64,000 nucleotides of DNA. Source: Corynebacterium appendicis CIP 107643. GTDB lineage: Bacteria > Actinomycetota > Actinomycetes > Mycobacteriales > Mycobacteriaceae. The stretch is from NCBI RefSeq assembly GCF_030408415.1, contig NZ_CP046976.1, positions 2,220,441 to 2,284,440 on the forward strand, read 5' to 3'. Position 1 is the stretch's first letter; every line of letters begins with the position of its first letter. Below are positions 756 through 58,359 of this stretch, piece by piece. Made by a program: the position numbers and the translations under genes. The notes below the pieces were generated by a model. That model ran no database searches. It was not told the DNA's origin and saw nothing but the letters and a program-made list of their open reading frames with translations.

Positions 756-2227
756 GTGCGTTTCGCCTCCTCCCAATCAGCCGGGCTGGTCATGAGCGGG
801 TCGCAGCCGAAGTGGGCGTCACGGACCTTGTCGCGGCGGCGGCCGCACATCTGTTGAACGACCAGCACCATAATCGCCACGATGAACGCGTCGCGGGCGA
901 TCACGATGATGTTGAGCGCCGCGCCAGGCAAGCCGAGGTTGTCGGTGCCCATCATGTGCCACATGAGGATCGGCCACACCATCATGTCCACGGTCATCCA
1001 CGTCAGCAGCAGACGCCAATAGGGGAGTGCGAGGACGGCGGGTACGACCAGCCACAGGGAGTACTGGGGGCTCCACACCTTGTTGAACAGCAGGAAGAAG
1101 CCGATGATGAGCACCACCAGCTCGGCGATGCGCGGTTCCTGCGGGGCTTTCAGCCCCGCAACCAGGACGAACAGGCACCCCAGAAGGAAGAGCACGAGAG
1201 TCACCGCGTTGAGGATGACGGGAGCGCCCTCGCCGGAGTCGAATCCGGTCCATCCGGTCATGCGCGATATCACCGCGTAGATCGTGGTCCACTCCCAGCC
1301 GCGCTCAGTGTTGAGGCGCTGGAATTCGTGCCAGGAATCGTAATTGTGCAGCATGAGCGGAACATTGACCGCCATCCACGTCGCGGCGGCACCGACGGTC
1401 AGCTTCACCCACGGCATCATGTCGCGGCGGCGCAGGAAGACAACGAGGTACGCACCGAGCAGGAAAATCGGCCACATTTTGAACGCCGCTCCCGCTCCGA
1501 TCAGCACGCCGGCCAGCCAGAACCGCTTGTTGCGCGCGGCCAGCATCGCGCCGACCGCGAATGCGATGGAGGGAATGTCCCAGTTGGTGAACGCGTGCAC
1601 GATCAGCAGGGGAGAGGCCACCACGAGGATCGTGTCCCAGATGCGGTTGCCGGCCAGTTCCGCGACCATGCGCGCAGTGGCCACCCAGATCACGGCCATC
1701 ACGAAGGCAGTCACGTACAAGTACCAGCCAGAGTCGGGCAAAAGCTTATCGACGACCGGATACGTCGTTCTGGCGATCCACCCCATCAAACCCTGGAACA
1801 GGCCGCCCAGGACCGGGTACTCCATGTACCGGGTGAGGTCGCCCTCCACCCACGAATAGTCGTAGACGAAACCGGGCTGGTCGAGCCCGCGCCCGCCGTA
1901 AAGCGGGACGATGTCGTTGTAGCAGAACGAGGTGTACTGGCGGTTTCCGTCCCAGTTGAGCTGCATCGCGCCGTCGACAAGCTTGCCGCGTGCGCAGTTC
2001 GATTTGGACAGCGCACCGAATGCGAGGAATGTCCACGCGACCGCGATGATCGCGCGCAGGGGAGTCCACCAGCGCCCGCGGCCGATCTGCGCGAACCGGC
2101 CCATCGGTCCGCCGAGTACGCGCACCACGCCCGCCGCCGCTGGCTCGGTGGAGGCCGGCTGGATACGGTCTGCCGGATCAGGCCAGCGCGCGCCGCTGTG
2201 CTGGGTGGCGTCCTGCTTCGTGGTCAC
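668..2227 (-). CDS. GT87 (DUF2029) polyprenol-dependent mannosyltransferase-like membrane protein
   Basis: 519-residue polytopic membrane protein. After a ~55-residue cytoplasmic N-terminus come about a dozen hydrophobic segments, with conserved-looking loops such as YSWVEGDLTRYMEYPVLGG. This is the pattern of GT-C fold glycosyltransferase family 87, which uses polyprenyl-phosphate sugars to build lipomannan, arabinan and related glycans at the outer face of the membrane. The homologue in Mycobacterium (Rv0051) also lies directly after a class A penicillin-binding protein gene. It starts at GTG 2227, one base past the stop of that gene, so the two form an operon. The exact sugar and acceptor cannot be read from sequence. 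Confidence 0.8.
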   Translation of the reverse strand: MTTKQDATQHSGARWPDPADRIQPASTEPAAAGVVRVLGGPMGRFAQIGRGRWWTPLRAIIAVAWTFLAFGALSKSNCARGKLVDGAMQLNWDGNRQYTSFCYNDIVPLYGGRGLDQPGFVYDYSWVEGDLTRYMEYPVLGGLFQGLMGWIARTTYPVVDKLLPDSGWYLYVTAFVMAVIWVATARMVAELAGNRIWDTILVVASPLLIVHAFTNWDIPSIAFAVGAMLAARNKRFWLAGVLIGAGAAFKMWPIFLLGAYLVVFLRRRDMMPWVKLTVGAAATWMAVNVPLMLHNYDSWHEFQRLNTERGWEWTTIYAVISRMTGWTGFDSGEGAPVILNAVTLVLFLLGCLFVLVAGLKAPQEPRIAELVVLIIGFFLLFNKVWSPQYSLWLVVPAVLALPYWRLLLTWMTVDMMVWPILMWHMMGTDNLGLPGAALNIIVIARDAFIVAIMVLVVQQMCGRRRDKVRDAHFGCDPLMTSPADWEEAKRTWVSPRPQSSESVPSSSHSVSSLPATGQS

Positions 2228-2228
2228 G

Positions 2229-4677: not shown

Positions 4678-5070
4678 CTAGGACAGAGTACTTCCTTGAG
4701 CGCCGAATGACGGAACCGGAACAGCTTCAGCGGTGCTCAAAAGATAGTTCCAGCGGCAGTTGCCGCAAACCTCGACGGTGTGGACGGTGAACGGGCCGGT
4801 TTCGTCGATAAGCTCCGCGATCTCTTCTTCGTTGCGTGCGGACCCGCAACGGCGGCCCAAGTTGTCTCCGTAGACCCATAAGACATTCCGCATTGTGGAT
4901 TCACAGATGGGGCAGGGGCGGTCGGAGTCGACGCCGTGGTGTTCGCCCGCGGCGCGGAGGAGAAAGTCAGCGTCGCAGAGTTCGTCGCGGCTCTTCTTTC
5001 CTGCCCGAAATTCACGCACGGCAGTGCGCCTTTCCCATTCGTGGGAGACAATATGAACCAGTTTGAACAT
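4678..5070 (-). CDS. DUF5318 family protein
   Basis: 130-residue soluble protein with Cys pairs CPIC (~58-61) and CGNC (~102-105) plus a further RRCGSA Cys, suggesting a small zinc-binding module. The family (Rv0049-like) is conserved next to class A PBP genes in mycobacteria and corynebacteria; its function is not established. TACGCT lies 7 nt before the ATG on the minus strand and there is no Shine-Dalgarno, so the mRNA is probably leaderless. It is divergent from the MarR gene across 110 bp. Confidence 0.75.
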   Translation of the reverse strand: MFKLVHIVSHEWERRTAVREFRAGKKSRDELCDADFLLRAAGEHHGVDSDRPCPICESTMRNVLWVYGDNLGRRCGSARNEEEIAELIDETGPFTVHTVEVCGNCRWNYLLSTAEAVPVPSFGAQGSTLS

Positions 5071-5735: not shown

Positions 5736-6698
5736 ATGGACACATACCCCCTCACTCCGGAGCTCCTCCCGCATGTCGGCGAGGAGCGTCCTTTGCGCAT
5801 CCTTGTCGGCTGGGACCAGTCGGGGGAAGAAGCGGTCGAGTTCGCCGCTTGGCTCGCGCGCACCACGAGTTGCAGTATTCGCGTCATCAGCACTGCTCCG
5901 CGCCCGTGGTCGTCGCTGCGCGGCAAAAAGAGCAAGAAATACAAGAAGTGGTTCAAACAGACCGAGGACAAGCGCGCCAGCTCAATCCGCCACGCACTCA
6001 AGCACCAGGTAGCGCGCGACGCTTGGGACGGTGAGTGGGCGGTCTTCCGCGACGGGGCACCGCGCCGCGAGCTAATTTCGGCTGAAGCTCAGCGCTTCAA
6101 GGCAGATCTTATTCTGCTCGGCTCGAAGTCCAAAGCGAAAAAGGGCCGTTTTTTGGCCACGTCCACCGCCGACGCGATGCTGCATTCTTCGCCCATCTCG
6201 GTCGGGATTTCCCCGCGCGCGGTGAAACTGTCCAAGAAAGGCATCACACGCGTCAATTACGCGTTTCTCGAGGAACGCACCGACGCCGCCGTCCGCGGAA
6301 TCAAGGTCGCGGCGTCCGTCGCAATGCTCCTCGACGTCGACCTGCGCATCATGGCTTTCTCACCCAAGGAGACGTACAAGCACGAAGCGGAATTCAACGG
6401 CCAGTCGCAGCTTATCGACGAATGGAATGAATCCTCCCTCGCCCTGCTCGACCGAGCCCGCGACTGTGTCAGTGACACCGCCGCGCAGCTCGGAATCTCG
6501 GAGCCGAAGAACTTCGAGGTGGAGACCTGTGTCAGCGCCGGCGAGGGCTGGAAGTCCGTGGTCAATTCCCAGAAGTGGAAGAAGGGCGACATCCTCTTCC
6601 TCGATTCCCAGCCCACGGAGCGGGCGCGCGTACTGACCAACCCGCGAACTGAGGATTTCCTCACCCACGCACCGGTGCCCGTGGTCATTTTCCCGTAG
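5736..6698 (+). CDS. Universal stress protein, tandem UspA domains
   Basis: 320-residue cytoplasmic protein made of two UspA-type alpha/beta domains, about residues 20-155 and 165-320. The first has the strand LRILVGWDQSGEEAVEFA and a nucleotide-loop-like GSKSKAKKGRFLATS; the second ends HAPVPVVIFP, a typical Usp C-terminal strand. A TTG nine bases upstream (5727) is in frame, but the ATG is preferred. It follows the MarR gene by ~90 bp on the same strand, as in C. glutamicum. The usual role is stress survival with ATP or AMP binding; the first-domain loop deviates from the G-2x-G-9x-G(S/T) consensus, so nucleotide binding is uncertain. Confidence 0.8.
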   Translation: MDTYPLTPELLPHVGEERPLRILVGWDQSGEEAVEFAAWLARTTSCSIRVISTAPRPWSSLRGKKSKKYKKWFKQTEDKRASSIRHALKHQVARDAWDGEWAVFRDGAPRRELISAEAQRFKADLILLGSKSKAKKGRFLATSTADAMLHSSPISVGISPRAVKLSKKGITRVNYAFLEERTDAAVRGIKVAASVAMLLDVDLRIMAFSPKETYKHEAEFNGQSQLIDEWNESSLALLDRARDCVSDTAAQLGISEPKNFEVETCVSAGEGWKSVVNSQKWKKGDILFLDSQPTERARVLTNPRTEDFLTHAPVPVVIFP

Positions 6699-8156: not shown

Positions 8157-9650
8157 TTACCGCCGGTGGTACAGCGCCTTGCGCCAGTACTGGGGCTCCG
8201 TGGTGGCCTGCACGCCGAGGTTGCGGAAGATACCCTCGTCGACCGAGCCGAGAATCGTGGTGATGTGAGCATCGCAGCCGCGCAGCGACTGCAGTTGCTC
8301 CAGGGCGAGGCGCGCATTCTCGTCGGAATTAGCCGAGGCGGACAAAGCAATGAGCACCTCGTCGGTGTGGAGGCGCGGATTGCGCGAGCCGAGGTAGCGG
8401 GTCTTCAAGGTCTGGATCGGCTCAATCGAATCGGGGGAGAGTAGGTGCACGTCATCATCGATCCCCGCGAGCTTCTTCAGGGCGTTGAGCAACACCGCCG
8501 CCGACGGCCCGAGCAGGTCCGAGGTCTTGCCGGTGACGATCTCCCCGTCGGGCAGCTCGAGTGCCGCGCCCGGGTTGCCGGTGCGCTCCGCCACAGCGAG
8601 CGCCGGGCCGACGACCGGGCGGTGGTCCACCGTGATCCCCGCCTTGCGCATGACATTCGCCGCGCGGTCGGGAACAGCCGGGTCCACGTCGCCCCGGCGC
8701 GCATCCACCTGCGCGGCGAGGAAACGGCGGATGATCTCCTGGTTCGCGGCGTACCGGCAGGCCTTGTCGTCGGAAATGCAGTGGCCGGCCATATTCACGC
8801 CCATGTCGGTGGGGGACTGGTACGGCTCGGTTCCCGTCGCCTCGCGCAGCAGCGCTTTGAGCAGCGGGAAGACCTCGATATCTCGGTTGTAGGACGAGAC
8901 CTGTTCGCCGTAGGCCGCCAGGTGGTACTGGTCGATGACGTTGATGTCGTCTAAGTCGACCGTCGCCGCCTCGTACGCGAGATTCACCGGGTGGGACAGC
9001 GGCAGGTTCCAGATCGGGAACGTCTCGAATTTAGCGTAGCCCGCGGGAATTCCACGTTGATTGTCCAGGTACACCTGGCTAAGGCACGTCGCGAGCTTGC
9101 CGGACCCGGGGCCCGGCGCGGTCATCACCACGACATCGCGGGAGATCTCGACATAGTCGTTGCGCCCGAAGCCGTCCTCGGAGACAATGCGCGAAATATC
9201 GTTCGGGTAACCCGGGATGATGTGGTGGAGGCTCACGGTCACACCGAGGCGCTCCAGCTTGTCACGGAACGCATCCGCCTGCTCAGTGCCGTTCTCGTAC
9301 TGCGTGATCACCACATTGTCGACGAGGAAGCCACGTTCACGGAAGACGTCGATAAGCCTCAGGACCTCGTCTTCGTACGTGATGCCGAGGTCCGCGCGGA
9401 CCTTTTGCCGCACGAGGTCGCCCGCCGCGACGCACACGACGATCTCGATCTCGTCCTTGATGCGCTCGAGCATCGCGATTTTATTGTCGGGCGTGAAGCC
9501 GGGCAGCACGCGGGAGGCGTGGTGGTCGTCGAAAAGCTTGCCGCCCATCTCGAGGTAGAGCTTCCCGCCAATCGCTTTTCGACGCTCCGAGATGTGCTCC
9601 GACTGCATGTCGATGTATTTCTCGCGGTCGAAACCGATTGTGTACACCAT
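8157..9650 (-). CDS. DUF1846 (UPF0371) protein
   Basis: 497-residue cytoplasmic protein of the DUF1846/UPF0371 family. It starts [13 protein letters not shown], which is typical for the family, and contains the conserved stretches [16 protein letters not shown] and GVNMAGHCI. Structures of family members show a kinase-like P-loop-type fold, but the reaction has not been firmly assigned to my knowledge. AAGGAG lies about 12 nt before the ATG. Its stop codon is shared with the -10 box of trhO downstream. Confidence 0.85.
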
Positions 9651-14524: not shown

Positions 14525-15340
14525 ATGCCTGAAGGTCACGTTCTCCACCGCCTCGCCCGCACTCTCAACGCGGACTTCCGCTCGGGCCCGGTGGAGGTGA
14601 CCAGCCCGCAGGGGAGGTTCGAGGCAGAAGCAGAGCTTATCGACGGCACGTGGCTCACCGAAGCTACCGCCCACGGCAAGCACCTGTTCATCTCCTTCGG
14701 GCACGAACAGGGCGAGCCGGAGCACACGATCTATATCCACCTCGGCCTGATCGGCTCATTGCGTTTTGAGCCCGCCACCGACGAATGGGGCCAGATGCGG
14801 CTGCACATCTCCAACGGCGAGACAGCCGCCAACCTGCGTGGCCCGCAGAAATGCGAGCTGATGACGCCGGGGGAGGCGGCTGCGATCGTCGATAAGTCTG
14901 GCTTCGACCCCATCGTCGACCTGGACCCGCCTGCCGCACTGTGGGAGCGCGTCCACCGTTCGAAGCGCACCATCGGCTCCCTCCTGATGGACCAGAAGCT
15001 CTTCGCCGGCGTGGGCAATATCTACCGCGCCGAGGTGCTGTTCCGGCAGAGAATCGACCCCGCCCTGCCCGGCGACCAGCTCGACCGCGCCCAGTTCGAC
15101 GCGATCTGGGCTGATCTGACCGAACTGATGGCTTACGGCGTCGACCACGGCCGGATCGACACCGTCCGTCCTGAGCACACGCCGGAGGCGATGGGCCGCC
15201 CGCCCCGCAAGGACGACCACGGCGGCGAAGTCTACGTCTACCGCCGCTCGGCGGATCCCTGCTATGTCTGCAGCACCCCCATCGAGACCAAGGTCCTCGA
15301 GGGCCGCAAGCTGTACTGGTGCCCCGAGTGCCAGGCTTGA
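14525..15340 (+). CDS. nei: Endonuclease VIII / Fpg-Nei family DNA glycosylase
   Basis: 271-residue bifunctional DNA glycosylase/AP lyase of base-excision repair. It begins MPEGH, with the catalytic Pro2 and Glu3 exposed after Met removal. The helix-two-turn-helix region includes LLMDQKLFAGVGNIYRAEVLF, and the C-terminus is a zinc finger (CYVCS, then CPEC). It resembles mycobacterial Nei1, which removes oxidised pyrimidines. TAGACT at 14512-14517 lies 7 nt before the ATG and begins with the TAG stop of rraA, so it is probably leaderless with a promoter inside the rraA 3' end. Confidence 0.9.
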   Translation: MPEGHVLHRLARTLNADFRSGPVEVTSPQGRFEAEAELIDGTWLTEATAHGKHLFISFGHEQGEPEHTIYIHLGLIGSLRFEPATDEWGQMRLHISNGETAANLRGPQKCELMTPGEAAAIVDKSGFDPIVDLDPPAALWERVHRSKRTIGSLLMDQKLFAGVGNIYRAEVLFRQRIDPALPGDQLDRAQFDAIWADLTELMAYGVDHGRIDTVRPEHTPEAMGRPPRKDDHGGEVYVYRRSADPCYVCSTPIETKVLEGRKLYWCPECQA

Positions 15341-18470: not shown

Positions 18471-19078
18471 TGGTCCGCATCATGCTTATCGACGACCACC
18501 CCGTCGTCCGCGCGGGGTTACGCGCCGTGCTGGAAAGCGACGGCAAGATCGAGGTCGTGGCGCAGGGCTCCGACGGCACCGCCGTCGACGATCTCCCCGC
18601 AGACGTCGACGTAGTGGTGACCGATATCCAGATGCCCACGACGAGCGGCATCGAGGTGGCACAGAAACTGCACGCCGCAGGCGGTCCGCCCGTGCTGATC
18701 CTGACCACCTACGACACGCAGGCCGATGTCGTCGGAGCGATGGAAGCCGGCGCGTTGGGGTATGTACTCAAAGACGCCCCGGAGGAAGACTTGCGTGCCG
18801 CAGTGCTCGCCGCCGCCAAGGGAGAGCGCACCCTATCGCCGCAGGTGGCGAATGTGTTGGCCGAACGCCTCACCCGCCCCGATGTGGCGTTGAGCGCCCG
18901 CGAGATCGAGATCCTCGAAGCTCTGGCCACTGGAGCATCCAACCGGGACATCGCCACGCAGCTGTTCATCTCCGCCGCGACCGTGAAGACACACCTGGTG
19001 CACATCTACAGCAAGCTCGGCGTGGACAACCGCACCGCTGCCATTGCCGCCGCGCGTCAGAAGCGCATCATCCAATAG
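18470..19078 (+). CDS. chrA: NarL/LuxR-family response regulator (ChrA-like)
   Basis: 202-residue two-domain regulator. The receiver (1-120) has the acidic pair DD at residues 8-9, the phosphorylation site Asp52 in VVTDIQMP, and Lys in VLKDAP. The LuxR-type HTH (~137-200) reads LSAREIEILEALATGASNRD. It is translationally coupled to the kinase gene. The expected target is the palindromic site upstream of the kinase and exporter genes. Confidence 0.75.
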   Translation: MVRIMLIDDHPVVRAGLRAVLESDGKIEVVAQGSDGTAVDDLPADVDVVVTDIQMPTTSGIEVAQKLHAAGGPPVLILTTYDTQADVVGAMEAGALGYVLKDAPEEDLRAAVLAAAKGERTLSPQVANVLAERLTRPDVALSAREIEILEALATGASNRDIATQLFISAATVKTHLVHIYSKLGVDNRTAAIAAARQKRIIQ

Positions 19079-19108: not shown

Positions 19109-20695
19109 ATGGTTTACGCGTACACAGCCGAACAGATCCGCGCGGCGGAAAAGCCCTTGCTGGATGCGCAGGCCAGCACAGATGAGCTGATGAAGTCCGC
19201 GGCCCACGCCGTCTTCGAGGCCGCCGAGGCGATGCTCGCGTGGCCCGACGCCTTGGCAGACCTCCGGCACAACCGCAGGACGCTCCTGCTGGTGGGCAAG
19301 GGCGGCAACGGGGGCGACGCGCTCTATGCCGGTGCGGAGCTCGCCCTCGCCGGCCACGCCGTCGACGCCTGGCTGGCGTGGGGGAGCGCCCACGCTCCGG
19401 CGCTGAAAGCCTTCCGCAATGCCGGTGGCACGGTGCTCACGGATCTTCCGGAAGACATGCGCGAATACCGTTTTGCCATCGACGGGCTCACCGGTCTCGG
19501 CGGCGCCGGCAGCCTCGACGAGCAGACTGGACGCGTCATCCAGGGCCTCGCCGACTGGTACGCGCACGTGCTCGCCGTCGACGTGCCTTCCGGCATCGAC
19601 GCGGATACGGGCGAAAAAGGCGAATTTCACGTCACCGCCGACGCTACCGTCACCTTCGGCTGCTGGCGTCTCGCCCACGGCCTCGCCCCCGAATGCGGCA
19701 TCCAGCTGCTCGCCGACCCGCACCTTAGCGACGGCAGCACGATCAGCGGCAATCTCTCGCCGCTGACTGCTGCTGCCATGCTCCACCGCTCGGTCAACGA
19801 CGACCACGAGTGGCCCGAGAGTCTCGCGCGGATCACCGCGACCAATGTGCCGAGCATGGAGCCACGCTTCCACGACGATAAATACACCGGCGGTGTCGTG
19901 GGTGTCCGCGCTGGCAGCGGCACGTATCCCGGCGCGGCAATCCTGTGCGTCGCAGGCGCCGTGCACGCCACCCCGTCGATGGTCCGCTACGCCGGCCCCC
20001 AGGCACTCGAGGTGGTGCGGGCGCTTCCAGAGGTCGTCGTTACGCGCAAGCTCGAAGACGCCGGTCGCGTCCAAGCCTGGGTTTTCGGCCCCGGCACGGG
20101 CACCGACAGCATCGCGCGCAGCGAACTCGCGTACTTGCTCGGCCGCGAGGAGCCACTGCTTATCGACGCCGACGGCCTCACCCTTCTCTCCCTCGACCCC
20201 GAGCTGCGCGAGCTCCTCCGCTCCCGTTCCGCCCAGACGCTGCTGACCCCGCACGACGGCGAATTCTCCCGGCTGCGCGATGCAGAGGGGATCGCCGAGT
20301 CCGACCGGCTGGCTGAGACCCGCGCAGTGGCGGAATCCTTCAATTGCATGGTGCTGCGCAAGGGGCGCACCACCATCCTGTGCGACCCCCGCCACGAAGC
20401 CGCGGACTCTGTCATCGATGCCGGTAACTCGTGGGCGGCGACGCCCGGTTCCGGCGACGTGCTCTCCGGAATCACCGGCGCGCACCTCGCCCAAACAGCC
20501 GCACGCTGGGGCAATGACGCCTTCCTGAGTGATACTCAGCCCGTGGTCGTTCACGCCGTGGCGAGCGCCCTGGCTGCGCAGACGGAATTTGGCCCCGCGC
20601 CCGCCCGCGCCTTCGCTATCGCGGAAGCGGTGCCCGCCGCGACGGCGAAGCTGCACCGATTCAGCGGTCTGCCGGCAGCTTCCACACAGCGGTAA
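19109..20695 (+). CDS. nnr: Bifunctional NAD(P)HX epimerase / ADP-dependent dehydratase
   Basis: 528-residue fusion that repairs hydrated NADH and NADPH. The N-terminal ~220 residues are the YjeF epimerase domain (KGGNGGDALYAGAELA, VDVPSGIDADTGE). The C-terminal half is the YjeF_C dehydratase, with LLIDADGLTLL, LLTPHDGEFSRL, VLRKGRTTIL and AATPGSGDVLSGI. TACCGT at 19096-19101 lies 7 nt before the ATG, giving a leaderless start; an in-frame GTG nine bases upstream is less likely. The 3' end overlaps the convergent membrane-protein gene by 35 bp. Confidence 0.92.
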   Translation: MVYAYTAEQIRAAEKPLLDAQASTDELMKSAAHAVFEAAEAMLAWPDALADLRHNRRTLLLVGKGGNGGDALYAGAELALAGHAVDAWLAWGSAHAPALKAFRNAGGTVLTDLPEDMREYRFAIDGLTGLGGAGSLDEQTGRVIQGLADWYAHVLAVDVPSGIDADTGEKGEFHVTADATVTFGCWRLAHGLAPECGIQLLADPHLSDGSTISGNLSPLTAAAMLHRSVNDDHEWPESLARITATNVPSMEPRFHDDKYTGGVVGVRAGSGTYPGAAILCVAGAVHATPSMVRYAGPQALEVVRALPEVVVTRKLEDAGRVQAWVFGPGTGTDSIARSELAYLLGREEPLLIDADGLTLLSLDPELRELLRSRSAQTLLTPHDGEFSRLRDAEGIAESDRLAETRAVAESFNCMVLRKGRTTILCDPRHEAADSVIDAGNSWAATPGSGDVLSGITGAHLAQTAARWGNDAFLSDTQPVVVHAVASALAAQTEFGPAPARAFAIAEAVPAATAKLHRFSGLPAASTQR

Positions 20696-23402: not shown

Positions 23403-24710
23403 ATGATCCTCACGTTGCTCATGTCCCTCGAAGGATCACGCCCGGAAATTTCGCGGCTGGTCAATGTCGAGGACGACGTCCATCTCGGCGAGTTCGCTCC
23501 CGTGATCGACGCCGCCTTCGGCTTCTCCGGCATGGCTACGCACCTGTACATGGGCACCGCCGACGGCGAGCCCGTCCTCTACTCCCCAAATCCGAGCGCG
23601 GGAGAGCGCGACGAGGCTGTCGTCACGCTGGGCGATGTCGACGCGCTGACGTACGTCTACGACACCTCCGCGAACTGGAATATCAAGCTCGAGATCCTAG
23701 GCGTCACAGACATCGACACCCCGTCGCCCATGCTTATCGACGTACAGGGCCCCGACATCATTGAGCCCTGCGGCGGCCCCGATCTGATGACCGCATTCCA
23801 CGCCGAGGCGCGCCGATTGGCCGCGGGCCTCAGCCCAGATATGAAGGTCTCCCCGCTACTGCTCAGCTTCATGCCGGTCATGAGTCCGGAACGCCTCATC
23901 CAGCGTCTTTCCCAGGCCGACCACACCACTGTGGCTGAGCGAATTGCCTTCACCGCGGAGGATCTCATGCTCGACACGGGCAGTGACGATTTCACCGACG
24001 CGTCGAACTCGCCTGAGCTATCTCACGAGTTCGATTCCTTCATGGAAACACGGCCCGACCTGCAGCAGATCCTGTCCCTCGATCCCAATCCCGAACGCAA
24101 CCCAACGCTCATTGCCGCGATATCAGAGTTCTTCTCCGACCATTCCCCGGAATTCGTGGAGGACACGCTCTATCCGTTCACGCGCATCGTCGGCAATATA
24201 CGCGCGTTCATCAACCATTGCTCGGAGCCCATCCGCCTTACGGCCCGCGGTAAGTTGCGCTCGCCAGACGTGCGCTCGCTTTCCGACGCTCTGAGCCTCA
24301 ACGTCAGCCCTGGTAAGCACCGCGAGGAAGCCGTTCCAGCCTTGGGCGCCCTCCGCACGTTTCTGCAGTTCGCCGACCTCCTCGAGACTGACGAGGGGAT
24401 GCTCGAAGCCAGTGAGGAAGCTCTCGAACTCATCACGAGTGCCGAGGCGGTGCTCTACATGTTCGAGGAGGAGTTCTTCCGCTTCTGCGCGATCAACCAC
24501 GACGACGATGGTGAACAGGTGCTCACATGGGCCGCGCACATGGCCGGTCTGGGCAGTCCCCCTGTCTTCTTTACCCCGCCGGCAGATCCCGTATTCACCG
24601 TGAACCTGCTCGTCGCCCTCGGGATTTACGAGCCAGCATCCACCGTGCAGGCCCCGATCCTCACCGAGCCCGGCAGGGGAGTGCTCAGCATTCTCCTCGA
24701 CTTGGAGTGA
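23403..24710 (+). CDS. pRiA4b ORF-3-like (IS1096 TnpR-type) protein
   Basis: 435-residue soluble protein. The N-terminal ~120 residues resemble the plasmid pRiA4b ORF-3 fold, with the hallmark TYVYDTSANWNIKLEIL (consensus YDFGDNWEH) after an SLEGSRPEISRLVNVEDD strand. The rest (~130-435) is a helical region with no recognised family. ORF-3 proteins travel with some transposons and plasmids, but no transposase or terminal repeats are seen here. TAAGGT at 23390-23395, 7 nt before ATG 23403, supports that start over a GTG nine bases upstream. Confidence 0.65.
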   Translation: MILTLLMSLEGSRPEISRLVNVEDDVHLGEFAPVIDAAFGFSGMATHLYMGTADGEPVLYSPNPSAGERDEAVVTLGDVDALTYVYDTSANWNIKLEILGVTDIDTPSPMLIDVQGPDIIEPCGGPDLMTAFHAEARRLAAGLSPDMKVSPLLLSFMPVMSPERLIQRLSQADHTTVAERIAFTAEDLMLDTGSDDFTDASNSPELSHEFDSFMETRPDLQQILSLDPNPERNPTLIAAISEFFSDHSPEFVEDTLYPFTRIVGNIRAFINHCSEPIRLTARGKLRSPDVRSLSDALSLNVSPGKHREEAVPALGALRTFLQFADLLETDEGMLEASEEALELITSAEAVLYMFEEEFFRFCAINHDDDGEQVLTWAAHMAGLGSPPVFFTPPADPVFTVNLLVALGIYEPASTVQAPILTEPGRGVLSILLDLE

Positions 24711-33462: not shown

Positions 33463-35676
<2,214 letters not shown>

Positions 35677-36705: not shown

Positions 36706-38167
36706 TTCTCAGCCCTCTGACCAGCATGTATTGTCTACGGACAATTCTAACGGCTTGGCCACGGTCCTCGATAACATTGTCCACGCCCGAAAGCGTCACA
36801 TTGACGGTATTAAGTCCCGGATCGCGCATGTCGACCCGGCGAGCCTTCCGCGGTCCGAGCGGTCCCTCTATGATTCGCTCGCCCGTCCCGGTACACGATT
36901 CATTATGGAGTGCAAATCTTCCTCGCCGTCGCTCGGTATGATTCGAGAGCATTACGAGCCGGGGGAGATCGCTTCCATCTACTCTCGATATGCCGCTGGC
37001 ATTTCCGTTCTGTGCGAACCGGAGCGCTTCGGGGGAGACTACGACCATCTCGCCACCGTCTCCGCGACGACGCATCTTCCCGTGCTTTGCAAAGACTTCA
37101 TCATCGATCCGGTGCAAATTCACGCCGCGCGATATTTCGGTGCCGATGCGATCCTGCTCATGCTCAGTGTTCTCGACGACGAGGAGTACGCCTCACTTTC
37201 CGCCGAGGCCGAGCGCCTGGGCCTCGATGTCCTCACCGAGGTCATTGACGAAGAGGAAGCCGCTAGGGCAACGAAGCTCGGCGCGAAGATCTTCGGCATC
37301 AACCACCGTAACCTGCATGACCTGAGCATCGATCTCGAGCGTTCCGGCCGCCTCGCGCCGCTCGCCCCGAAAGGCGCCCTCACCGTCGCCGAGTCGGGAA
37401 TCCGCGATGTGCAGACAGTCCGCGAACTCGGCTGCCACTCCGACGGATTCCTCGTCGGATCGCACCTCACCGGGCACCCGGATATCGATTGGGCTGCGCG
37501 AATGCTGGTTTATGGCCCCAATAAAGTCTGCGGACTGACCTCCCGCACTGCTGCACAGGCCGCCCGTGCCGTCGGCGCAGTCTACGGCGGGCTCATCTTC
37601 GAAGAACCCAGCCCGCGCAATGTTTCACGTGAAACAGCGAAAGACATTATCGTCAACGAGCCCGGCCTCCGCTATGTCGCGGTCAGCCGCCGCACCGAGG
37701 GGTGGGACGAACTCGTCCTTCCGGGGATCCACGCAGTGCAAATCCACGCTCCGTACCAAGGTTCTCTCGACGCAGAGCGCGAACTCATCTCGAAGGTCCG
37801 AGCAACCGTCCGAGCCCTCGATCCGGAAATTGAGGTCTGGCGGGCCGTCTCCATGTCAGACCCCGACGGGCCGGCAGTGGCTCGGGGACTGGCAGGAGAC
37901 GTCGATAAGCTAGTGCTCGACGCGAAAGACGGCGGGTCGGGGACCGGCTTCGACTGGTCCACGATTCCCGATGCTGTCCGCCCCCATGCGCTTCTTGCCG
38001 GGGGGCTGGGCCCAGATAATGTGGAGGATGCGCTGCAGGTTGGATGCCTAGGTGTGGACCTCAATTCCGGCGTCGAATACCCGGCCGAGGCAGGCCGATG
38101 GTCCGGCACCAAAGACTCCGGTGCGTTACGCACCACCTTCGACCGGATCAGAAATTTCCATTACTGA
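36698..38167 (+). CDS. trpCF: Bifunctional indole-3-glycerol phosphate synthase / phosphoribosylanthranilate isomerase
   Basis: 489-residue fusion. Residues ~20-275 are TrpC (FIMECKSSSPSLG, ISVLCEPERFGGD, CKDFIIDPVQI, FGINHRNL) and the rest is TrpF (KVCGLTSRTAAQAARAVGA, AVQIHAP, LDAKDGGSGTGFDW, LAGGLGPDNV). Both are TIM barrels catalysing steps 3 and 4. The start is GTG 36698, overlapping the trpD stop, with GAGGGGG upstream. A perfect parS site (37621-37636) lies in the TrpF part, reading VSRET. Confidence 0.95.
   Translation: MANSQPSDQHVLSTDNSNGLATVLDNIVHARKRHIDGIKSRIAHVDPASLPRSERSLYDSLARPGTRFIMECKSSSPSLGMIREHYEPGEIASIYSRYAAGISVLCEPERFGGDYDHLATVSATTHLPVLCKDFIIDPVQIHAARYFGADAILLMLSVLDDEEYASLSAEAERLGLDVLTEVIDEEEAARATKLGAKIFGINHRNLHDLSIDLERSGRLAPLAPKGALTVAESGIRDVQTVRELGCHSDGFLVGSHLTGHPDIDWAARMLVYGPNKVCGLTSRTAAQAARAVGAVYGGLIFEEPSPRNVSRETAKDIIVNEPGLRYVAVSRRTEGWDELVLPGIHAVQIHAPYQGSLDAERELISKVRATVRALDPEIEVWRAVSMSDPDGPAVARGLAGDVDKLVLDAKDGGSGTGFDWSTIPDAVRPHALLAGGLGPDNVEDALQVGCLGVDLNSGVEYPAEAGRWSGTKDSGALRTTFDRIRNFHY
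37621..37636. other. parS site within trpCF
   Basis: Perfect TGTTTCACGTGAAACA, read in frame as Val-Ser-Arg-Glu-Thr near the start of the isomerase half. Confidence 0.95.
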
Positions 38168-39451: not shown

Positions 39452-40293
39452 TGTCCCGCTTTGACACCCTTTTCGCGGACCTCGACACCAAGAACGAAGG
39501 TGCATTCGTGCCTTTCGTCATGCTCGGAGACCCCTCCGCCGAAGATGCCGTCGACATCATCAGCACACTTATCGACGCCGGCGCCGACGCCCTCGAGCTA
39601 GGCATTCCCTTCTCCGATCCCGCAGCAGACGGCCCGACCATCCAGAAATCGCATTTGCGTGCGCTGGACGGGGGCGCGACCGTCGATAAGTGCTTGGACC
39701 AGATAAGCGAGATCCGCCGCCGCTACCCTGAGGTGCCGATCGGCATGCTGGTATATGCGAATGTCCCGTACGTCCGAGGACTGGAACAATTCTACGCTGA
39801 CCTGCACACATCTGGCGCAGATGCCGTCCTGATTCCCGACGTGCCCGTTCGGGAAGGTGCCCCCTTCATCGAGGCCGCGACCGCCGCCGGCATCGACCCC
39901 GTCTACATCGCCCCCGCGCAGGCCCGCCCCGAGGTTCTCGAAGGTGTCGCCGCGAACTCCCGCGGCTACATCTACGCCGTCTCCCGCGACGGAGTCACCG
40001 GTGCCGAGCGCGAATCCCAGACGAAGGGGCTTGCCGACGTCGTCTCTAACATCTCCACCTACGGCGGCGCCCCGGTACTCCTCGGTTTCGGTATCTCCAC
40101 CCCGCAGCACGTTGCCGACGCTGTCGCCGCTGGGGCCGCCGGTGCGATCACCGGCTCCGCCATCGCGAAGATCATCGACGCCCACGTCGAGTACTCTCAC
40201 CCGAACCCGGGCACCATCCGCGATAAGGACGCCCTGACAGCGGAGCTTCGCGAGTACGTCGCCACCATGAAGCAGGCTACGATCAAGCCATGA
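39451..40293 (+). CDS. trpA: Tryptophan synthase alpha chain
   Basis: 280-residue TIM-barrel subunit that releases indole from indole-3-glycerol phosphate. Catalytic Glu lies in DALELGIPFSDPAADGP, with Asp in VLIPDVPVRE; GFGISTPQHV is the phosphate-binding region. The start overlaps the trpB stop and the stop overlaps the ATG of the Rieske gene, so the operon continues downstream. Confidence 0.97.
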   Translation: MSRFDTLFADLDTKNEGAFVPFVMLGDPSAEDAVDIISTLIDAGADALELGIPFSDPAADGPTIQKSHLRALDGGATVDKCLDQISEIRRRYPEVPIGMLVYANVPYVRGLEQFYADLHTSGADAVLIPDVPVREGAPFIEAATAAGIDPVYIAPAQARPEVLEGVAANSRGYIYAVSRDGVTGAERESQTKGLADVVSNISTYGGAPVLLGFGISTPQHVADAVAAGAAGAITGSAIAKIIDAHVEYSHPNPGTIRDKDALTAELREYVATMKQATIKP

Positions 40294-44058: not shown

Positions 44059-44300
44059 CAAAACTCCTTGCTCAGCAGAATTGCAGCACCGCAAACATAA
44101 GACCTCCACGCGGCCCCAGCAGCGCGTTCACAAGAAGTTCACCGGCAGAGAAACAAGCATTCGCTTATCGACGCCCACCCCTCCCGCACCAAACCCCCGA
44201 CCGACAGAATGGGAGAGCCTGGGCGGCGGGTGAATCGATTTGGGTCCTTGTGCTCCTGGATCGAAATCCTCTTCAGAAGCCCGAAGAAGGGGGGTCGCAC

Positions 44301-45391: not shown

Positions 45392-46000
45392 CTAGTTGTC
45401 TTCGAGGTCGGCGGGGAACGTCGAGAAGAGGGGCAGGGGCATCGGCTGGCGGCGCAGCACATCGCTGTACAGGTCGGCCGCAGCGGGGGCGATGACGTCG
45501 GTGGGCAGGGCGGGAGCGACGTACCAGTCGCCGCGCTCGATCTCCTCGTCGAGCTGGCCCGGAGCCCACTCGGCGTACCCGGAGAAGACGCGCATGCCCT
45601 CGAGAAGACCCTCGACGGACTCGGGCTCGGCCTGCAGGTTCACGTGGACGAGGCGGTTGGCCAGGCGGGTGAGTTCGGGGTGGTCCTCAATGAAAGTACC
45701 GGAGGACGTCATGCCGACGGCAATGGCGGCCTGCGGGCGCAGCGGTCCGCCGACGTAGAGCGCCTGCGGCTTCGCCACGTGAGGCAGCCATTCGGGCATA
45801 ACCGAGTGGACGGCCAGCTCAGAGCGGCGGTTGAGGACGACGCCGAACGTGGCTTCGGGGGTGACGTCGATAAGCAAAATGACGGTGCGCGCGAAATCAT
45901 CGGCGAGCATGCCCGGCGCGGAAACAAGCAGCATGCCTGGAGCTGGCGTTTCGCGCTCGAGCGCGGTGAATAAGCGGTCCGCGTAAAAGAACTCAGCCAT
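45392..46000 (-). CDS. YqgE/AlgH (UPF0301) family protein
   Basis: 202-residue protein of the YqgE/AlgH fold with GMLLVSAPGMLADDFARTVILL, FGVVLNRRSEL, LYVGGPL and VFSGYAEWAPGQLDEEI. Its role is unclear; it is widely conserved. The start at 46000 overlaps the pcnA stop by 8 bp, and an upstream in-frame codon inside pcnA is less likely. Confidence 0.85.
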   Translation of the reverse strand: MAEFFYADRLFTALERETPAPGMLLVSAPGMLADDFARTVILLIDVTPEATFGVVLNRRSELAVHSVMPEWLPHVAKPQALYVGGPLRPQAAIAVGMTSSGTFIEDHPELTRLANRLVHVNLQAEPESVEGLLEGMRVFSGYAEWAPGQLDEEIERGDWYVAPALPTDVIAPAAADLYSDVLRRQPMPLPLFSTFPADLEDN

Positions 46001-48415: not shown

Positions 48416-50874
48416 CGGGCCGGCGCACGCGTAGGGCAGCCGCGGTGCTCGCCGCGGCGGTGCTCTCATGCGCGGCCCAGCCCGTCCCCGTCACCCCGAA
48501 CGATCCCGCAGTCGCGCACGAATGGGTCAACGCGCAGATCCGTCCCGACGACGGGCAGCAGGGGATCACGCTTTCGCTTATCGACGCCCCGGCCACTGTC
48601 CCTTCCGGCAACCCCCTGTCCGTCACCGTGCGTGTCAGGAATGAATCCGACGCGGACGTCGCCGGGCTGACTATCGCGCCGCTGCGCGGACCGGCGTCAG
48701 GGTCGGTGGCGGATGCCCGGGCGGCGAGTGTGGCATCGGTCTCCGAGTACCACTCTGCGGGCGACGAAGTAGACATCCCGGAACTGGCGCAGGGGGAGGA
48801 GACCGAGGTCAAGGTCGCGATCCCCACGCAGAAGCAGCCGTTCACCAGCAGCTTTCCGATGATGCTGGTGCTGGGGCAGGACGGCGTGGCGCTGGACACG
48901 GAACGCTGGCACATGGCAGTCATGGGGGATACGCCTGAGAATGAACCGGAGGCGGAATCAACAGAGCCAGCCGGAATGAGCGTGCTATTCCCGATCTCTG
49001 CGCCGGTGGACATCGTGCCGGGGGAGACGGGGGAGGCGCCGAACCGTCCGCCGCTGATCTTGCAATCGGAGGACTTGACCGGACAGCTCGCCCCGGGCGG
49101 GCGCCTCGACGAGCTCGTGGACACGTACGCGGAAGCCACCGAGAACGACGGGGTGCGCGATTCGACATGCCTGGCCGTCGACCCGGCGCTCCTCGACGCC
49201 GTTGAGCGGATGACGCAGGGCTACACCGTGGACAACGACAGGCCCTCACCGGGACTGGACCGGAAACGCCTGCGCGATTCGTGGGGCAGCGACGACTCGG
49301 GCGAAGGCGCCGAGGAAGGCACGGGAGCCGAGGATGCCGCCGCATGGCTGGGCAAGTTGCGTGGCGCCGCGAAGGACAATTGCGCTGTCGCGCTGCCCTG
49401 GGCGAATACCGACCTGAACGCGGTTGCGCGCACCGGCGACACCTGGCTCATGCGCGAGGCACTGGAGCGCGGACCGTTCACCGCCGAGCGGATCCTGGAT
49501 ACCCCAGTGGTGCGCAACGTGGTGGTGCCCGGCGCGGGCTACCTCACTCCGGAATCCGCGCCGGGCATGGGCTGGGCGGATCTCAGCACATCAGATCTTC
49601 CCACCACGGGCATGCACAGCCAGTGGGAGATCGAGCAGAATGCGCAGTCCAAGGAGGCGGAGACCCCCGGCGGGCGCGTCGAAGGGGAGCAGCGCTCCAA
49701 CCTGGACAACCCGGCGCTGCCCAATGCCGCGGACGCAGCCGCGCCGGCGCCGCAGGAGGACGTGCGGGTGCTGGTGGCGGACAATACCGTGAATACGACG
49801 GATCCCAACCAGCGGTTCGCCGATCTCACGCCGGGCATCACGGCGGTGACCTTCGACAGCGGGCTGGCGGCCACATTGGCGGCGACGGGTCCACTGCCGG
49901 AGACCCCGGGATACTCGGACGAGCTCCTGCGCTACGATTTCACACTCGACTCGGTGGCCGCGCGCGACCTGACGGCGGCGACGGCAGTGCGCACTGCTGC
50001 TCAAAATGCTGAAGATCTCGACCCCACCCTGGTGAACCCGCCAGCAATGTGGGAGGCCACCACGGCCACGGCAGTGATGTCGACGGTGGAGGCGCTGTTC
50101 GGAGAGAAGACTGCGACACCCATGCCCCTGGAGGATTATGCGGGAAAGCAGGGGGATGTGGGGCAGGGAGACGTCGATACGCTGGGCGTTCCTGCAAGCG
50201 ACCCGGGCGAGCTCACGGACACCGAGCTGCTGAATTCCGGGCAGCAAGCGCGCTTCATCAACGACCTGACCGCGCTTCTGGCCAACGACGAGGCCATCGC
50301 GCTGACGCGGTACGGGTACACGCTGCCGCTGCGCACGGACCTGCTCACGGCGCTGACGGTGAACGGGCGGCGGGCGTACGCGGGCTACACGGACGCGGAG
50401 AAGCGCACGCGCGAACGGCTCAACAGCGACCGGGACACGCTCGCGGCGCTGCGGTCGTCGATCGCGCTCATCCCGCCGGGGAATGTGTACACGCGCACGT
50501 CCGCGTCGTCTCCGCTGTTCATCGTGGCGCAGAACGGTCTACCGCTGCCGGTGGACGCGACAATCCTCTACAACGGGCCGGACGGCGCGAAGCTGAACAC
50601 TCCGACCAAATTCCGCATCCCGGCGCGGGGCTCGCTCACGCTGCAGATGACGGCGGACCTGCCGTCGGACTCGGAGCGCACCGACCTGCAGCTGTTCCTG
50701 GCCACCCCGCACAACCAGGCGATTTCGCAGCCGGTGGAGATCGGGGTGCAGACGGCGGGGGCGTCGATAAGCAGCTGGGTGCTCATCTCGCTGCTGGCGG
50801 CACTGTTCGTGCTCGCTGTTCTCGCGCAGTTCGGGAAACGCCGACGAGATAGAGATTCGCGGCGGGCGGACTAA
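48412..50874 (+). CDS. DUF6049 secreted/anchored protein
   Basis: 820-residue protein with a signal segment ([19 protein letters not shown]), a large extracellular part and a C-terminal membrane anchor ([19 protein letters not shown]) followed by a basic tail. Its position between the NUDIX and murJ genes matches Rv3909, suggesting a link to peptidoglycan-precursor flipping, not proven. GTG 48412 overlaps the NUDIX stop (GTGA), indicating coupling. A Cys after the signal could be a lipobox (LSCA), but the fit is weak. Confidence 0.82.
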
Positions 50875-54270: not shown

Positions 54271-54912
54271 GTGAATACGCAAACGCAGGGGATTCAACAC
54301 AGCCACGGCCGCTTGGCGCGCACATACCGCCTGAAGGCGGAGCGGAAGCAGCAGAAGCAGCAACAGCAGACCATGCCGGACAATGCGCTGGTCACAGAGT
54401 TCGTCGCTGGGGACCACAAGGCATTCGCCGTCATCGTGGAAAGGCACAGGCAAAGGATGATGGCCGTCGCAAAGCGGTATGCGCGCAACGAGCACGACGC
54501 GCAAGATATCGTCCAGGACGCGCTCTTCAAAGCCTCGCGCAACATGCACACATTCCGGGCGGAGTCCGCGCTGACGACGTGGCTCCACCGGCTCGTGCAG
54601 AATGCGGGGTACGACCACGCGAAACGCGCGGAGAATAAGCGGCAGCACGCCAGCCTCGACGATTCGGAGAAGCTCAACCAGGACTCGAACCGCTACCTCG
54701 CGATCGATCCGCTGGGCAATCTCGACCGCCTGCTCGCGCTCCGCCAGGCGCTCATGAAGCTTCCGGCCGCGCAGCAACGGGCACTCATGCTTATCGACGT
54801 CGCCGGGTACTCCATCGACTCCGCCGCCTCCCAGTTGGGCGTGCGCCCCGGCACCGTGAAATCGCGCCGGAACCGCGCTCGCCAGGCATTATCGGACTGC
54901 TTGGGCAGTTAA
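54271..54912 (+). CDS. sigM: ECF sigma factor SigM
   Basis: 213-residue ECF sigma factor. Region 2 includes [30 protein letters not shown] and region 4 includes [23 protein letters not shown] with the [20 protein letters not shown]. Between the GTG 54271 start (GGGGGACAAG just upstream) and ATG 54373 lies a 34-residue Gln/Lys/Arg-rich stretch (KQQKQQQQ) of unclear role, so the shorter start is possible. In C. glutamicum SigM drives thioredoxin and disulfide-stress genes, and trxB and trxA follow here. No anti-sigma gene (rsmA) lies between sigM and trxB. Confidence 0.88.
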
Positions 54913-56046: not shown

Positions 56047-56066
56047 ATTTTGGCCCAAAATATTCT
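56047..56066 (+). promoter_or_regulatory. trxA promoter with overlapping palindrome
   Basis: ATTTTGG-C-CCAAAAT (56047-56061) is a perfect palindrome whose last base is the first base of a TATTCT -10 box (56061-56066). It predicts a start near 56073 and a ~73-nt leader. A protein bound here would block or tune the promoter. Confidence 0.5.
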
Positions 56067-56145
56067 GAACTAGCCAATTGCGCACGGCGCGCTAGCTAGA
56101 AAACCGGCTAGAAAAGCAGGGAAACAGAACAGGAGCACAGCGACC

Positions 56146-56469: not shown

Positions 56470-56575
56470 CCATCGTCCAACCATCGGGCCCCGCACGCAT
56501 GGCATTCGACTTATGCTGCGGCGGGGACAGTAAGATGAAACCGATCCTCAAGGCTCGGTGTGAAGAAGGTGACTT

Positions 56576-57754
56576 GTGTTAGGTCCGTTTCGAGTGGGCG
56601 ACTCCAGCGCGCGCGTCGCTGAAGTCCGCTCGACCCTTGCACGTCTGGGGTTGCTGGACGACTTCGAGGGAGATGTGGGGGAGTGGAACCGCCGCCGGTT
56701 CTCCCAGTCGGAGATGTACTTCGACGAAGAGCTGAGCACCACGCTCAAGGCATTCCAGCAGTCCCGCGGCATTTTGCCGTCGGGCGAGATCGACAACATC
56801 ACCTTGCGGGAGCTGCGCCACGCCTCCTACACACTGGGGGCGCGTGCGCTGTCCTACCAGCCGAACCAGATCCTGGTCGGCGACGATGTGAGCCAGCTGC
56901 AAAAGCAGCTCCAGGAGCTCGGCTTCTACTCCGGGCGCATTGACGGCCACTTCGGTCCCGACACTCACGCGGCTCTGACGAATTACCAGCTGAATTACGG
57001 CATCCAAGACGACGGCGTGTGCGGCCCGGAGACTCTGCATGCGCTGAGCCTGCTCGGCCGCCGCATCACCGGCGGTTCCACCCAGGCGATCCGCGAGCGC
57101 GAAGTGGTCCGCATGGCAGGCCCGCGCCTGACCGGCAAGCGGGTGGTCATCGATCCGAATATCGACGTCGAGAATATGACCCGGATTCACGGCCCGTACG
57201 GCGAGATCACCGAGGAAGAAATCCTCTGGGACCTAGCCTCCCGCGTCGAGGCACGCATGATCGCCGCCGGCATGGAGACCATCATGTCGCGTCCGCGCGG
57301 GGACAACCCGTCCGCGAAGGCGCGCGCCGACCTAGCGAACAGCTTCGAGGCGGATCTGATGGTCTCTCTCCAACTGGACCGCTACCAGAACGAGAAGGCC
57401 AACGGCGTAGCTACGTTCTACTTCGGCTCCGAGCAGGGCGCGTCCTCCATGACGGGCGAGATGCTCTCCGGCTTCATCCAGCGCGAGATCGTCGCCCGCA
57501 CGCAGCTGGGCAACTGCTACAACCACGGCCGCACGTGGGAGCTGCTGCGCATGACGCAAATGCCGTCAGTCGAAATCGTGCTGGGGTACGTGACCAATCC
57601 GCACGATATGTCCATCATCACCGACCCGACACAGCGCGACGCGATCGCCGAGGCGATCGTCGTGGCCGTCAAGCGCCTCTACCTGCTCGAACAGGACAAC
57701 AAGCCCACCGGCACCTACTCGTTCACCGAGCTGCTGCGCCAAGAGCGGGCCTAA
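56576..57754 (+). CDS. cwlM: CwlM, inactive amidase-like regulator of peptidoglycan synthesis
   Basis: 392-residue protein with two peptidoglycan-binding-like domains (~1-80 and ~100-160) and an Amidase_3 domain (~185-370). Two zinc ligands of active amidases are missing: the DPGHGG loop is DPNIDV at 193-198, and SLHAN is SLQLDR at 264-269 with Gln266. Glu333 in VEIVLGYVTN is kept. No signal peptide is present. This fits CwlM of mycobacteria, a cytoplasmic PknB substrate that activates MurA rather than cutting wall. The start is GTG 56576 with AGAAGGTGA upstream. Confidence 0.92.
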   Translation: MLGPFRVGDSSARVAEVRSTLARLGLLDDFEGDVGEWNRRRFSQSEMYFDEELSTTLKAFQQSRGILPSGEIDNITLRELRHASYTLGARALSYQPNQILVGDDVSQLQKQLQELGFYSGRIDGHFGPDTHAALTNYQLNYGIQDDGVCGPETLHALSLLGRRITGGSTQAIREREVVRMAGPRLTGKRVVIDPNIDVENMTRIHGPYGEITEEEILWDLASRVEARMIAAGMETIMSRPRGDNPSAKARADLANSFEADLMVSLQLDRYQNEKANGVATFYFGSEQGASSMTGEMLSGFIQREIVARTQLGNCYNHGRTWELLRMTQMPSVEIVLGYVTNPHDMSIITDPTQRDAIAEAIVVAVKRLYLLEQDNKPTGTYSFTELLRQERA

Positions 57755-58359
57755 ATCACCGCCGCCAGCAAATCCGCGACCTCCCGTTCGGTCAGCAAAC
57801 CGTGCGCCGGCGGGAGCTCCAGGCGCAGGCGCGGAATTTCCGGGTGATCCGCCACCACTTCAAAGCCCGCTGATTCCAGCACCTCCACCGGCATAAGTCC
57901 AATGACGGGATTATCGGCTGGCTCAGTCCGAAACCCGAATGCTTCGACCGCGGGGAGGGAGCGGGAGGAAAGGGCGGCGACGGCGGCGTCGATAAGCACT
58001 GCTTCCCAGCCGATGCCCGCGACGGCGGTATCGATGTGCAGGCTGGTCAGACAGTATGCGTCGGCTGAAAATGGCGCGGTGGGCATGCGGGCAGCCCCGG
58101 GCGCGGCGGACGGCGGGCACATAAGCAACGTCGCCCGTGCGCCGGTGCTGGTGGCCGGGTCGGCGATGGAGAAGCCCACGGTGGGCTGCTCGTAGGCGAG
58201 GGCGAGGAGCCATGCCGCCCTATCGACGTCCGAGTCGGTGCCGCCGAACGCGTCACCGAGCGGGTCCAACTCCCAGAACACGCTGCGCGCTGTGGTGCGG
58301 TGGATATACGCGAGATTGGCCGCTTGCAGCGGGATCAGACGCCCTCGTCGCAGCGGCAT
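57751..58359 (-). CDS. Acetyltransferase-like protein (Rv3916c position)
   Basis: 202-residue soluble protein between cwlM and parB, the position of Rv3916c. It has a GNAT-like layout (LTSLHIDTAVAGIGWEAVLI then a C-terminal strand with GFEVVADHPEIPRLRLEL) but no clear acetyl-CoA motif. TAGGCT lies 8 nt before the ATG and starts with the TAG stop of parB. Its 3' end overlaps cwlM by 4 bp. Confidence 0.65.
   Translation of the reverse strand: MPLRRGRLIPLQAANLAYIHRTTARSVFWELDPLGDAFGGTDSDVDRAAWLLALAYEQPTVGFSIADPATSTGARATLLMCPPSAAPGAARMPTAPFSADAYCLTSLHIDTAVAGIGWEAVLIDAAVAALSSRSLPAVEAFGFRTEPADNPVIGLMPVEVLESAGFEVVADHPEIPRLRLELPPAHGLLTEREVADLLAAVI

Follow-up and report, generated by a model that had tools for sequence, protein, structure and literature searches.

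Evenness along the chromosome and the use of both strands are common to the DNA uptake sequence (DUS) of the Neisseriaceae and the uptake signal sequence (USS) of the Pasteurellaceae, the latter being a short non-palindromic core that is mostly coding, evenly spaced and accompanied by a T-rich flank. The DUS, a word of 10-12 bp, is found hundreds to thousands of times in a genome and varies in dialects around a common core (Frye et al. 2013, PMC3630211), and differences in DUS content have been used to spot integrated mobile elements (PMC7371117). Preferential uptake of such a short self word has been described for these two families (PMC1939737). A word with comparable behaviour is described here from a window of 64 kb, the last 64 kb of the single-contig genome (2,284,440 bp) of Corynebacterium appendicis CIP 107643, in which a decamer had been noticed from the letters alone to be massively over-represented (the original prediction). 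The full word, an 11-mer with the spelling GCTTATCGACG, is abundant and specific, is selected as DNA, is conserved at its sites and varies in dialects, and it is spread over the genus, depleted on plasmids and accompanied by candidate uptake machinery. With a probability of roughly 0.75 it is a DNA uptake sequence, that is, a short self-recognition word that the transformation machinery prefers in DNA from outside.

The Corynebacterium word is similar to the DUS, which has the receptor ComP, in word length, in the range of copies and in having species dialects with a shared core. It differs in that its sequence is unrelated, that it is not concentrated between genes, that there are fewer copies per dialect word, and that the pilus is of type IVa there and probably of the Tad/Flp type here; also, the host lineage is Gram-positive and mycolate-walled, unlike the Neisseriaceae. 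The USS is similar in its non-palindromic core, its coding location and its evenness, and a T-rich flank stands beside the words of two Corynebacterium genomes (G048 and G230), whereas the sequence is again unrelated, and phylum and pilus are others. For Micrococcus luteus we know of no uptake sequence. The Flp-dependent transformation of that organism is nevertheless alike in its genes for ComEA, ComEC and Tad/Flp (PMC6370729, PMC4322843), and in this actinobacterium Tad/Flp pili and ComEA/ComEC serve transformation (PMC6370729). Among the open-access papers surveyed by title and opening of abstract, none reports the motif or any other actinobacterial uptake sequence. According to PMC10526031 no such sequence is on record for mycobacteria, passages on spaced motifs in PMC5217627 give only CRISPR repeats for Corynebacterium, and motif words occur in two metabolic-engineering papers on Corynebacterium glutamicum (PMC8042324, PMC12272175).

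The word and its copies in the genome

All 23 predicted decamers are present in the window, 12 on the plus strand and 11 on the minus strand, and their coordinates hold, except that 1745 is the start of the decamer while the 11-mer begins one base earlier, at 1744. In 100 dinucleotide shuffles of the window, the decamer occurred 0.10 times on average and at most once. The whole genome (2.28 Mb) contains 613 decamers and only three copies of the word read backwards, and the equal use of orientations that was claimed for the window extends to the genome, with 317 copies on the plus and 296 on the minus strand. A genome sample of 464 kb, made up of the window and 20 spaced stretches, contains 144 decamers, whereas an order-3 Markov model predicts 1.6. 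The predicted excess is real, and it is larger than had been stated.

In the window, 20 of the 23 decamers are preceded by G and three by A. As G precedes 137 of the 144 copies in the sample and most single substitutions are rare (25 of the 30 single-substitution variants of the decamer were seen at most 8 times each), the unit is the 11-mer GCTTATCGACG. The tolerant position is the first of the two inner bases, where C, G and T were found in 30, 39 and 30 copies versus 7.8, 5.4 and 2.3 expected, and the profile of the motif is non-palindromic. Samples of other genomes reveal a bipartite and non-palindromic 11-mer, GCTT-NN-CGAYG, of which GCTTATCGACG is a single spelling. The decamer is one dialect of this wider element, which lay beyond the reach of the data that the original prediction was made from. 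The family has 1387 copies in this genome and 41 in the window, 20 of them GCTTATCGACG and 21 variants, to which three copies of the A form ACTTATCGACG are to be added (Table 1).

The spacing of the copies, predicted to be roughly regular, is indeed more even than chance, with a coefficient of variation of 0.754 over 123 gaps and a random mean of 0.968, and none of 500 random placements within the same stretches was as even as this. Close pairing as in terminators is not enriched, there being 7 gaps below 200 bp and 9 expected. Over the 180 motif-rich genomes that are introduced below, the two strands carry 103605 and 103736 copies, and with the origin placed near the beginning of the record and the terminus halfway along it, 74 copies of the sample are leading and 70 lagging, which is no replication polarity (the GC skew changes its sign near mid-genome and is noisy).

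KOPS, the FtsK-orienting sequences, show a strong strand polarity towards the terminus, and known Chi sites have 5-8 bp and are usually oriented with replication, so that both are disfavoured by a word without polarity. A Chi-like site would stop or alter the nuclease that resects double-strand breaks, and from this the abundance on the chromosome and the scarcity on plasmids would follow. The copy density is similar (about one Chi per 5 kb in E. coli), and like Chi, the word is frequent, short, chromosomal and rare on plasmids, with copies that are mostly coding and variable between lineages. The word of Corynebacterium is, however, longer and bipartite as well as non-polar, and a strong site-by-site conservation in combination with even spacing is to our knowledge no feature of any Chi. 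A Chi-like function is thus considered unlikely.

Selection on the DNA and conservation of the sites

Predicted genes contain 124 of the 144 copies in the sample, a further 16 are intergenic and 4 straddle a gene edge, and the coding share (124/144) matches the genic share of the DNA (87%). The coding copies read Leu-Ile-Asp in 76 cases, Val-Asp-Lys in 34 and something else in 14, and the prevalence of the first frame would agree with a by-product of codon-pair bias or of a bias for this peptide. Synonymous shuffles of 425 genes, however, gave a mean of only 8.2 copies and a maximum of 13 in 60 runs, where 124 are found. The rare leucine codon CTT is used and also retained: where leucine is conserved relative to genome G183, CTT is kept in 7 of 9 cases inside the motif and in 23 of 95 outside. 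Retention extends to copies in the remaining frames and to an intergenic copy, and by these observations a codon-pair or peptide bias is refuted, with practically no probability left for it.

The conservation of sites was compared with an expectation that was computed from all aligned 11-mers, and it was scored for the G form GCTTATCGACG, with the three A-form copies outside the test. Over all 30 relatives, 42 of 110 sites are exact versus 11.8 expected, two sites in leuS making up 54 of these 110 cells. The two relatives with 82-83% nucleotide identity are G171 (7 of 7 sites exact, 1.1 expected) and G183 (10 of 14, 2.3 expected), and G058 with 78% identity has 6 of 12 sites exact where 1.3 are expected. 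The excess over the shuffles and the retention of copies in relatives at synonymous positions, CTT included, together bear out the earlier claim that selection acts on the DNA and not on one peptide. Neither of the two results that were named with the original prediction as refuting it, counts at the codon-pair expectation or a lack of conservation at synonymous sites in close relatives, was obtained.

Spread over the genus and dialects

Genomes were classed by the ratio of GCTTNNCGAYG to its backward-read control, with a ratio of at least 5 for motif-rich and of at most 2 for motif-poor genomes. By this measure 180 of 242 Corynebacterium genomes are motif-rich, 45 are motif-poor and 17 intermediate. 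The motif-rich genomes have a median of 1135.5 family copies (242 to 2032), while the decamer as such varies between 0 and 863 copies per genome. In 140 genomes from 30 other genera of the same family the ratio does not exceed 2.7, and in each of 57 genomes from other genera of the family the decamer has at most 25 copies. The element is confined to Corynebacterium within the one family searched.

Between species the spelling changes. The commonest inner pair in the samples is AT in C. appendicis, GC in G001 and G096, and GT in G062 and G075, whereas G005, G055 and G070 have no single strong choice, and in 14 of the 242 genomes GCTTNNCGATG predominates, with 490 to 1337 copies (the next highest genome has 223). 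For the GCTT-NN-CGAC/TG spellings, dialects with a shared core are borne out. Genome G011 is without GCTTNNCGAYG and has instead the dispersed word WTGACGYCGCG (stretches L081 and L082), with 913 copies versus 14 of its control and at most 55 copies in each of the other 79 genomes tested, and this is the strongest indication that another code can exist in motif-poor genomes. The word TCGACGCCACC is modestly enriched in G048 (215 copies), G213 (130) and G230 (124), and the motif-rich G075 also has 105; in the samples of G048 and G230 a T-rich flank stands beside it. An alignment by judgement suggests a common TT-NN-YGAYG core across all these forms.

For replacement words, 17 motif-poor genomes were sampled with 18-72 kb each. 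When words were searched de novo in motif-poor genomes, most hits were either GC-rich with codon periodicity or tandem repeats (G017, G080), and the refinement of position weight matrices drifted for G001, G055, G053 and G023 and was left out for these. As separate observations, G219 (L113, L114) contains another highly repeated word, ACTGAGCCGA, with 44 copies, and in G005 (L101, L102) AGCGGGGATG is repeated 14 times in 40 kb, which is perhaps a CRISPR array.

The dialects bear on two further explanations. Among the possibilities that the original prediction had listed, an uptake sequence fits best, while a HIP1-type element or a methylation site fits poorly, because the motif is asymmetric and its inner bases drift between species. 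HIP1 is a palindromic octamer, and the motif profile has no such symmetry. A self-mark of a restriction-modification or defence system, or a methylation-linked element of the HIP1 type, would likewise be a short word over-represented in a subset of species and rare on plasmids, but the word specifies 9-10 bases around a free inner pair, which is longer than ordinary methyltransferase sites, and the inner TCGA is not retained in the dialects GCTTGCCGATG or WTGACGYCGCG. Such a mark is very unlikely.

The word could also be the binding site of a nucleoid protein or another protein that organises the chromosome and is evenly distributed on it. Even spacing, scarcity off the chromosome and the conservation of sites, including the intergenic copy at 44163, agree with this. 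In contrast, 1387 non-palindromic family copies are far more than is known for site-specific organisers such as MatP or SlmA, and since the motif does not exceed twice its control in 45 of the 242 Corynebacterium genomes, a basic chromosome function is hard to reconcile with its distribution. That hundreds of sites are rewritten from species to species is known for uptake sequences but is not known for chromosome organisers, and a role in chromosome organisation is regarded as improbable.

Depletion on mobile DNA

Mobile DNA was represented by 19 extra contigs of 1.5 to 145 kb from 13 motif-rich assemblies (309 kb, contigs longer than 20 kb being represented by their first 20 kb). The family occurs there 15 times where its density in the whole assemblies predicts 133.5 copies, which is an about 9-fold depletion, and the backward control has 4 copies versus 7.7 expected; one contig that reads N throughout (L228) adds 0.8 to the expectation of the family, and a twentieth stretch (L238) is chromosome and was excluded from the count. 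One long open reading frame (ORF) was scanned in each of 13 extra contigs and gave a TrwC relaxase in 8, a phage tape-measure domain in one and neither in 4, so that the contigs, where identified, are mostly plasmids. On the 8 contigs with TrwC relaxase there are 4 family copies where 68.7 are expected. The phage BFK20 (42 kb) has one family copy and two decamers. As an observation apart from this, the second contig of G037 (L225) has a long ORF with a Type ISP restriction-modification specificity domain.

Candidate uptake machinery

ComEC was found in 241 of 242 Corynebacterium genomes. In a set of 80 genomes, of which 35 were chosen as motif-rich, 40 as motif-poor and 5 as weak or intermediate, the Tad ATPase TadA was found in all 80, as was ComEA, the latter above the curated cut-off in 77. 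C. appendicis itself has a tad locus at about 156-160 kb (Ssd-TadA-TadB-TadC-Flp(DUF4244)-TadE-like) and comEA-comEC at about 1.76 Mb.

A loss of the machinery as the cause of motif loss is rejected by these counts. As the machinery genes do not separate motif-rich from motif-poor genomes, motif loss may rather reflect that specificity was lost or that the receptor changed. TadA scores at least 165 bits in all 35 motif-rich genomes, whereas in the motif-poor ones it scores at least 161 in 12 of 40 and below 160 in 28 of 40. These 28 score like a divergent TadA type that is found at the tad loci L138-L142 of G007, G080, G216, G241 and G120, all five of which are motif-poor, with a helicase neighbour at the locus in four of the five. 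In a gene tree built from the TadA of 20 genomes and two outgroups, the divergent group is set apart from the remaining Corynebacterium sequences and from the Nocardia/Rhodococcus pair, and because the five low scorers are one divergent group, the low scores in motif-poor genomes can be explained by shared ancestry. The same tree, which is a gene tree and not a species tree, has motif-poor genomes interspersed among motif-rich ones and needs five changes of the motif state, at least three of which are forced by well-supported branches, and this points to repeated loss or change of the motif.

A proposed mechanism and the evidence against it

Dense copies without polarity, evenness, dialects with a core, maintenance at silent sites and scarcity on plasmids make up the pattern that is known from DUS and USS. 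If the word is an uptake sequence, a receptor at the cell surface would bind GCTT-NN-CGAYG on free double-stranded DNA, and by analogy with ComP of Neisseria this receptor may be sought first among the minor pilins of the Tad/Flp system. The Tad/Flp pilus would then pull the DNA fragment inward, and ComEA and ComEC would move one strand to the cytoplasm, where it could recombine with the chromosome. Fragments with the word would be imported more often and the word would spread in this way, and biased gene conversion would restore it in either orientation where the encoded protein allows. Drift of the receptor between species could generate the dialects and, with them, partial barriers to gene exchange. 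It is likely, though with somewhat less confidence than for the uptake function as such, that Corynebacterium has a sequence-coded self-recognition for transformation that originated in another phylum than the systems of Neisseria and Haemophilus, independently of these, and acts via the Tad/Flp pilus, the dialects of which are rewritten at hundreds of sites as species diverge and form a mating barrier at the level of DNA inside a single large genus.

Several points weigh against an uptake sequence. Binding of the word and its preferential uptake are inferred, as are the receptor, the drive and the barrier. No paper on natural transformation of any Corynebacterium was found among the open-access titles and abstract openings surveyed. 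For the receptor there are only candidates, the small TadE-like proteins that adjoin flp in the tad locus. ComEC, ComEA and TadA are equally common in motif-poor genomes, for which reason the presence of the machinery fails to predict the motif. Site conservation fades in more distant relatives: G009 (75% identity) retains one of 11 sites, with 0.7 expected, and six of the nine genomes with a LeuS that is 79-82% identical retain no aligned site. The depletion on plasmids would equally be expected of Chi. Furthermore, the words of G011 and of G048/G230 have been tied to the main motif by eye, and among the 17 motif-poor genomes sampled a replacement word is clear in one (G011) and modest in two (G048, G230), with hints in two more (G007, G241) and nothing convincing in the other 12.

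Copies and neighbouring features in the window

A crude gene finder placed 21 of the 23 decamer copies of the window (Table 1) in genes. The prediction of a single intergenic copy, that at 44163, is plausible all the same, because the gene finder overlooked the small ORF around 4803.

Table 1. Copies of the repeated word in the 64-kb window of C. appendicis, with their surroundings and their state in aligned relatives
Word	Position	Strand	Surroundings	Aligned relatives
GCTTATCGACG	1744..1754	+	inside ORF 668-2227(-), GT87-like	
GCTTATCGACG	4803..4813	-	small ORF 4678-5070(-)	
GCTTATCGACG	6410..6420	+	Usp-family gene 5736-6698	
GCTTATCGACG	9347..9357	-	NF010184 gene 8157-9650(-)	exact in G183, sole relative aligned
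GCTTATCGACG	14635..14645	+	Fpg/Nei-like gene 14525-15340	exact in G183, sole relative aligned
ACTTATCGACG (A variant)	14887..14897	-	Fpg/Nei-like gene 14525-15340	
GCTTATCGACG	18484..18494	+	near start of response regulator gene 18470-19078	exact in G183, sole relative aligned
GCTTATCGACG	20158..20168	+	NAD(P)H-hydrate epimerase/dehydratase-like gene 19109-20695	exact in G183, sole relative aligned
GCTTATCGACG	23732..23742	+	gene 23403-24710 (PRiA4_ORF3-like)	exact in G183, sole relative aligned
GCTTATCGACG	27806..27816	+	leuS 25995-28868(-)	exact at homologous place in 12 of 28
GCTTATCGACG	28313..28323	-	leuS 25995-28868(-)	exact in 5 of 26
GCTTATCGACG	29925..29935	-	flavodoxin-like gene 29515-30045(-)	exact in 2 of 5 (G171, G229)
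GCTTATCGACG	34080..34090	-	trpE 33490-35031	exact in G171 and G183, both aligned
GCTTATCGACG	34110..34120	+	trpE, opposite orientation to copy at 34080	exact in G171; G183 differs by one base
GCTTATCGACG	37900..37910	-	trpCF 36938-38167	exact in 2 of 2
ACTTATCGACG (A variant)	39567..39577	+	trpA 39451-40293	
ACTTATCGACG (A variant)	39681..39691	-	trpA 39451-40293	
GCTTATCGACG	44163..44173	+	intergenic, predicted genes end 43902 and start 44301	exact in G171 and G183, both aligned
GCTTATCGACG	45865..45875	-	AlgH-like gene 45392-46000(-)	exact in G183, sole relative aligned
GCTTATCGACG	48576..48586	+	DUF6049 gene 48445-50874	inexact in G183, variant GCTTGTCGACG there
GCTTATCGACG	50762..50772	-	DUF6049 gene 48445-50874	none aligned at site
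GCTTATCGACG	54789..54799	+	sigma-70-type factor gene 54271-54912	
GCTTATCGACG	57987..57997	-	gene 57751-58359(-) without a Pfam family at 1e-6	
Variant family copies	1972, 9527, 9574, 10771, 15667, 16816, 24278			
Variant family copies	26081, 26186, 29260, 30434, 36642, 38893, 40029			
Variant family copies	41332, 42024, 45049, 48851, 53085, 54465, 60716			

Two other words stand out in the window. TTGCGCA/TGCGCAA is also in excess, with 25 copies versus 7.5 expected when both strands are counted. Four perfect parS sites (TGTTTCACGTGAAACA) are found at 26319, 28926, 31577 and 37621 and span about 11 kb; this cluster is presumably where ParB loads, close to the origin.

Meaning for Corynebacterium

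In the literature consulted, preferential uptake by a short self word was found described only in Gram-negative bacteria unrelated to Corynebacterium. If the word of Corynebacterium is indeed an uptake sequence, it would represent a third independent origin of this trait, rich in dialects within a single genus that is well sampled, and sequence-coded gene exchange would be a repeated outcome of evolution. Many species of Corynebacterium would then be predicted to be naturally transformable, and the word would provide a handle for the genetics of laboratory strains that are hard to transform. The about 180 motif-rich genomes would in this case also be a collection in which the co-evolution of an uptake code and its receptor can be studied.

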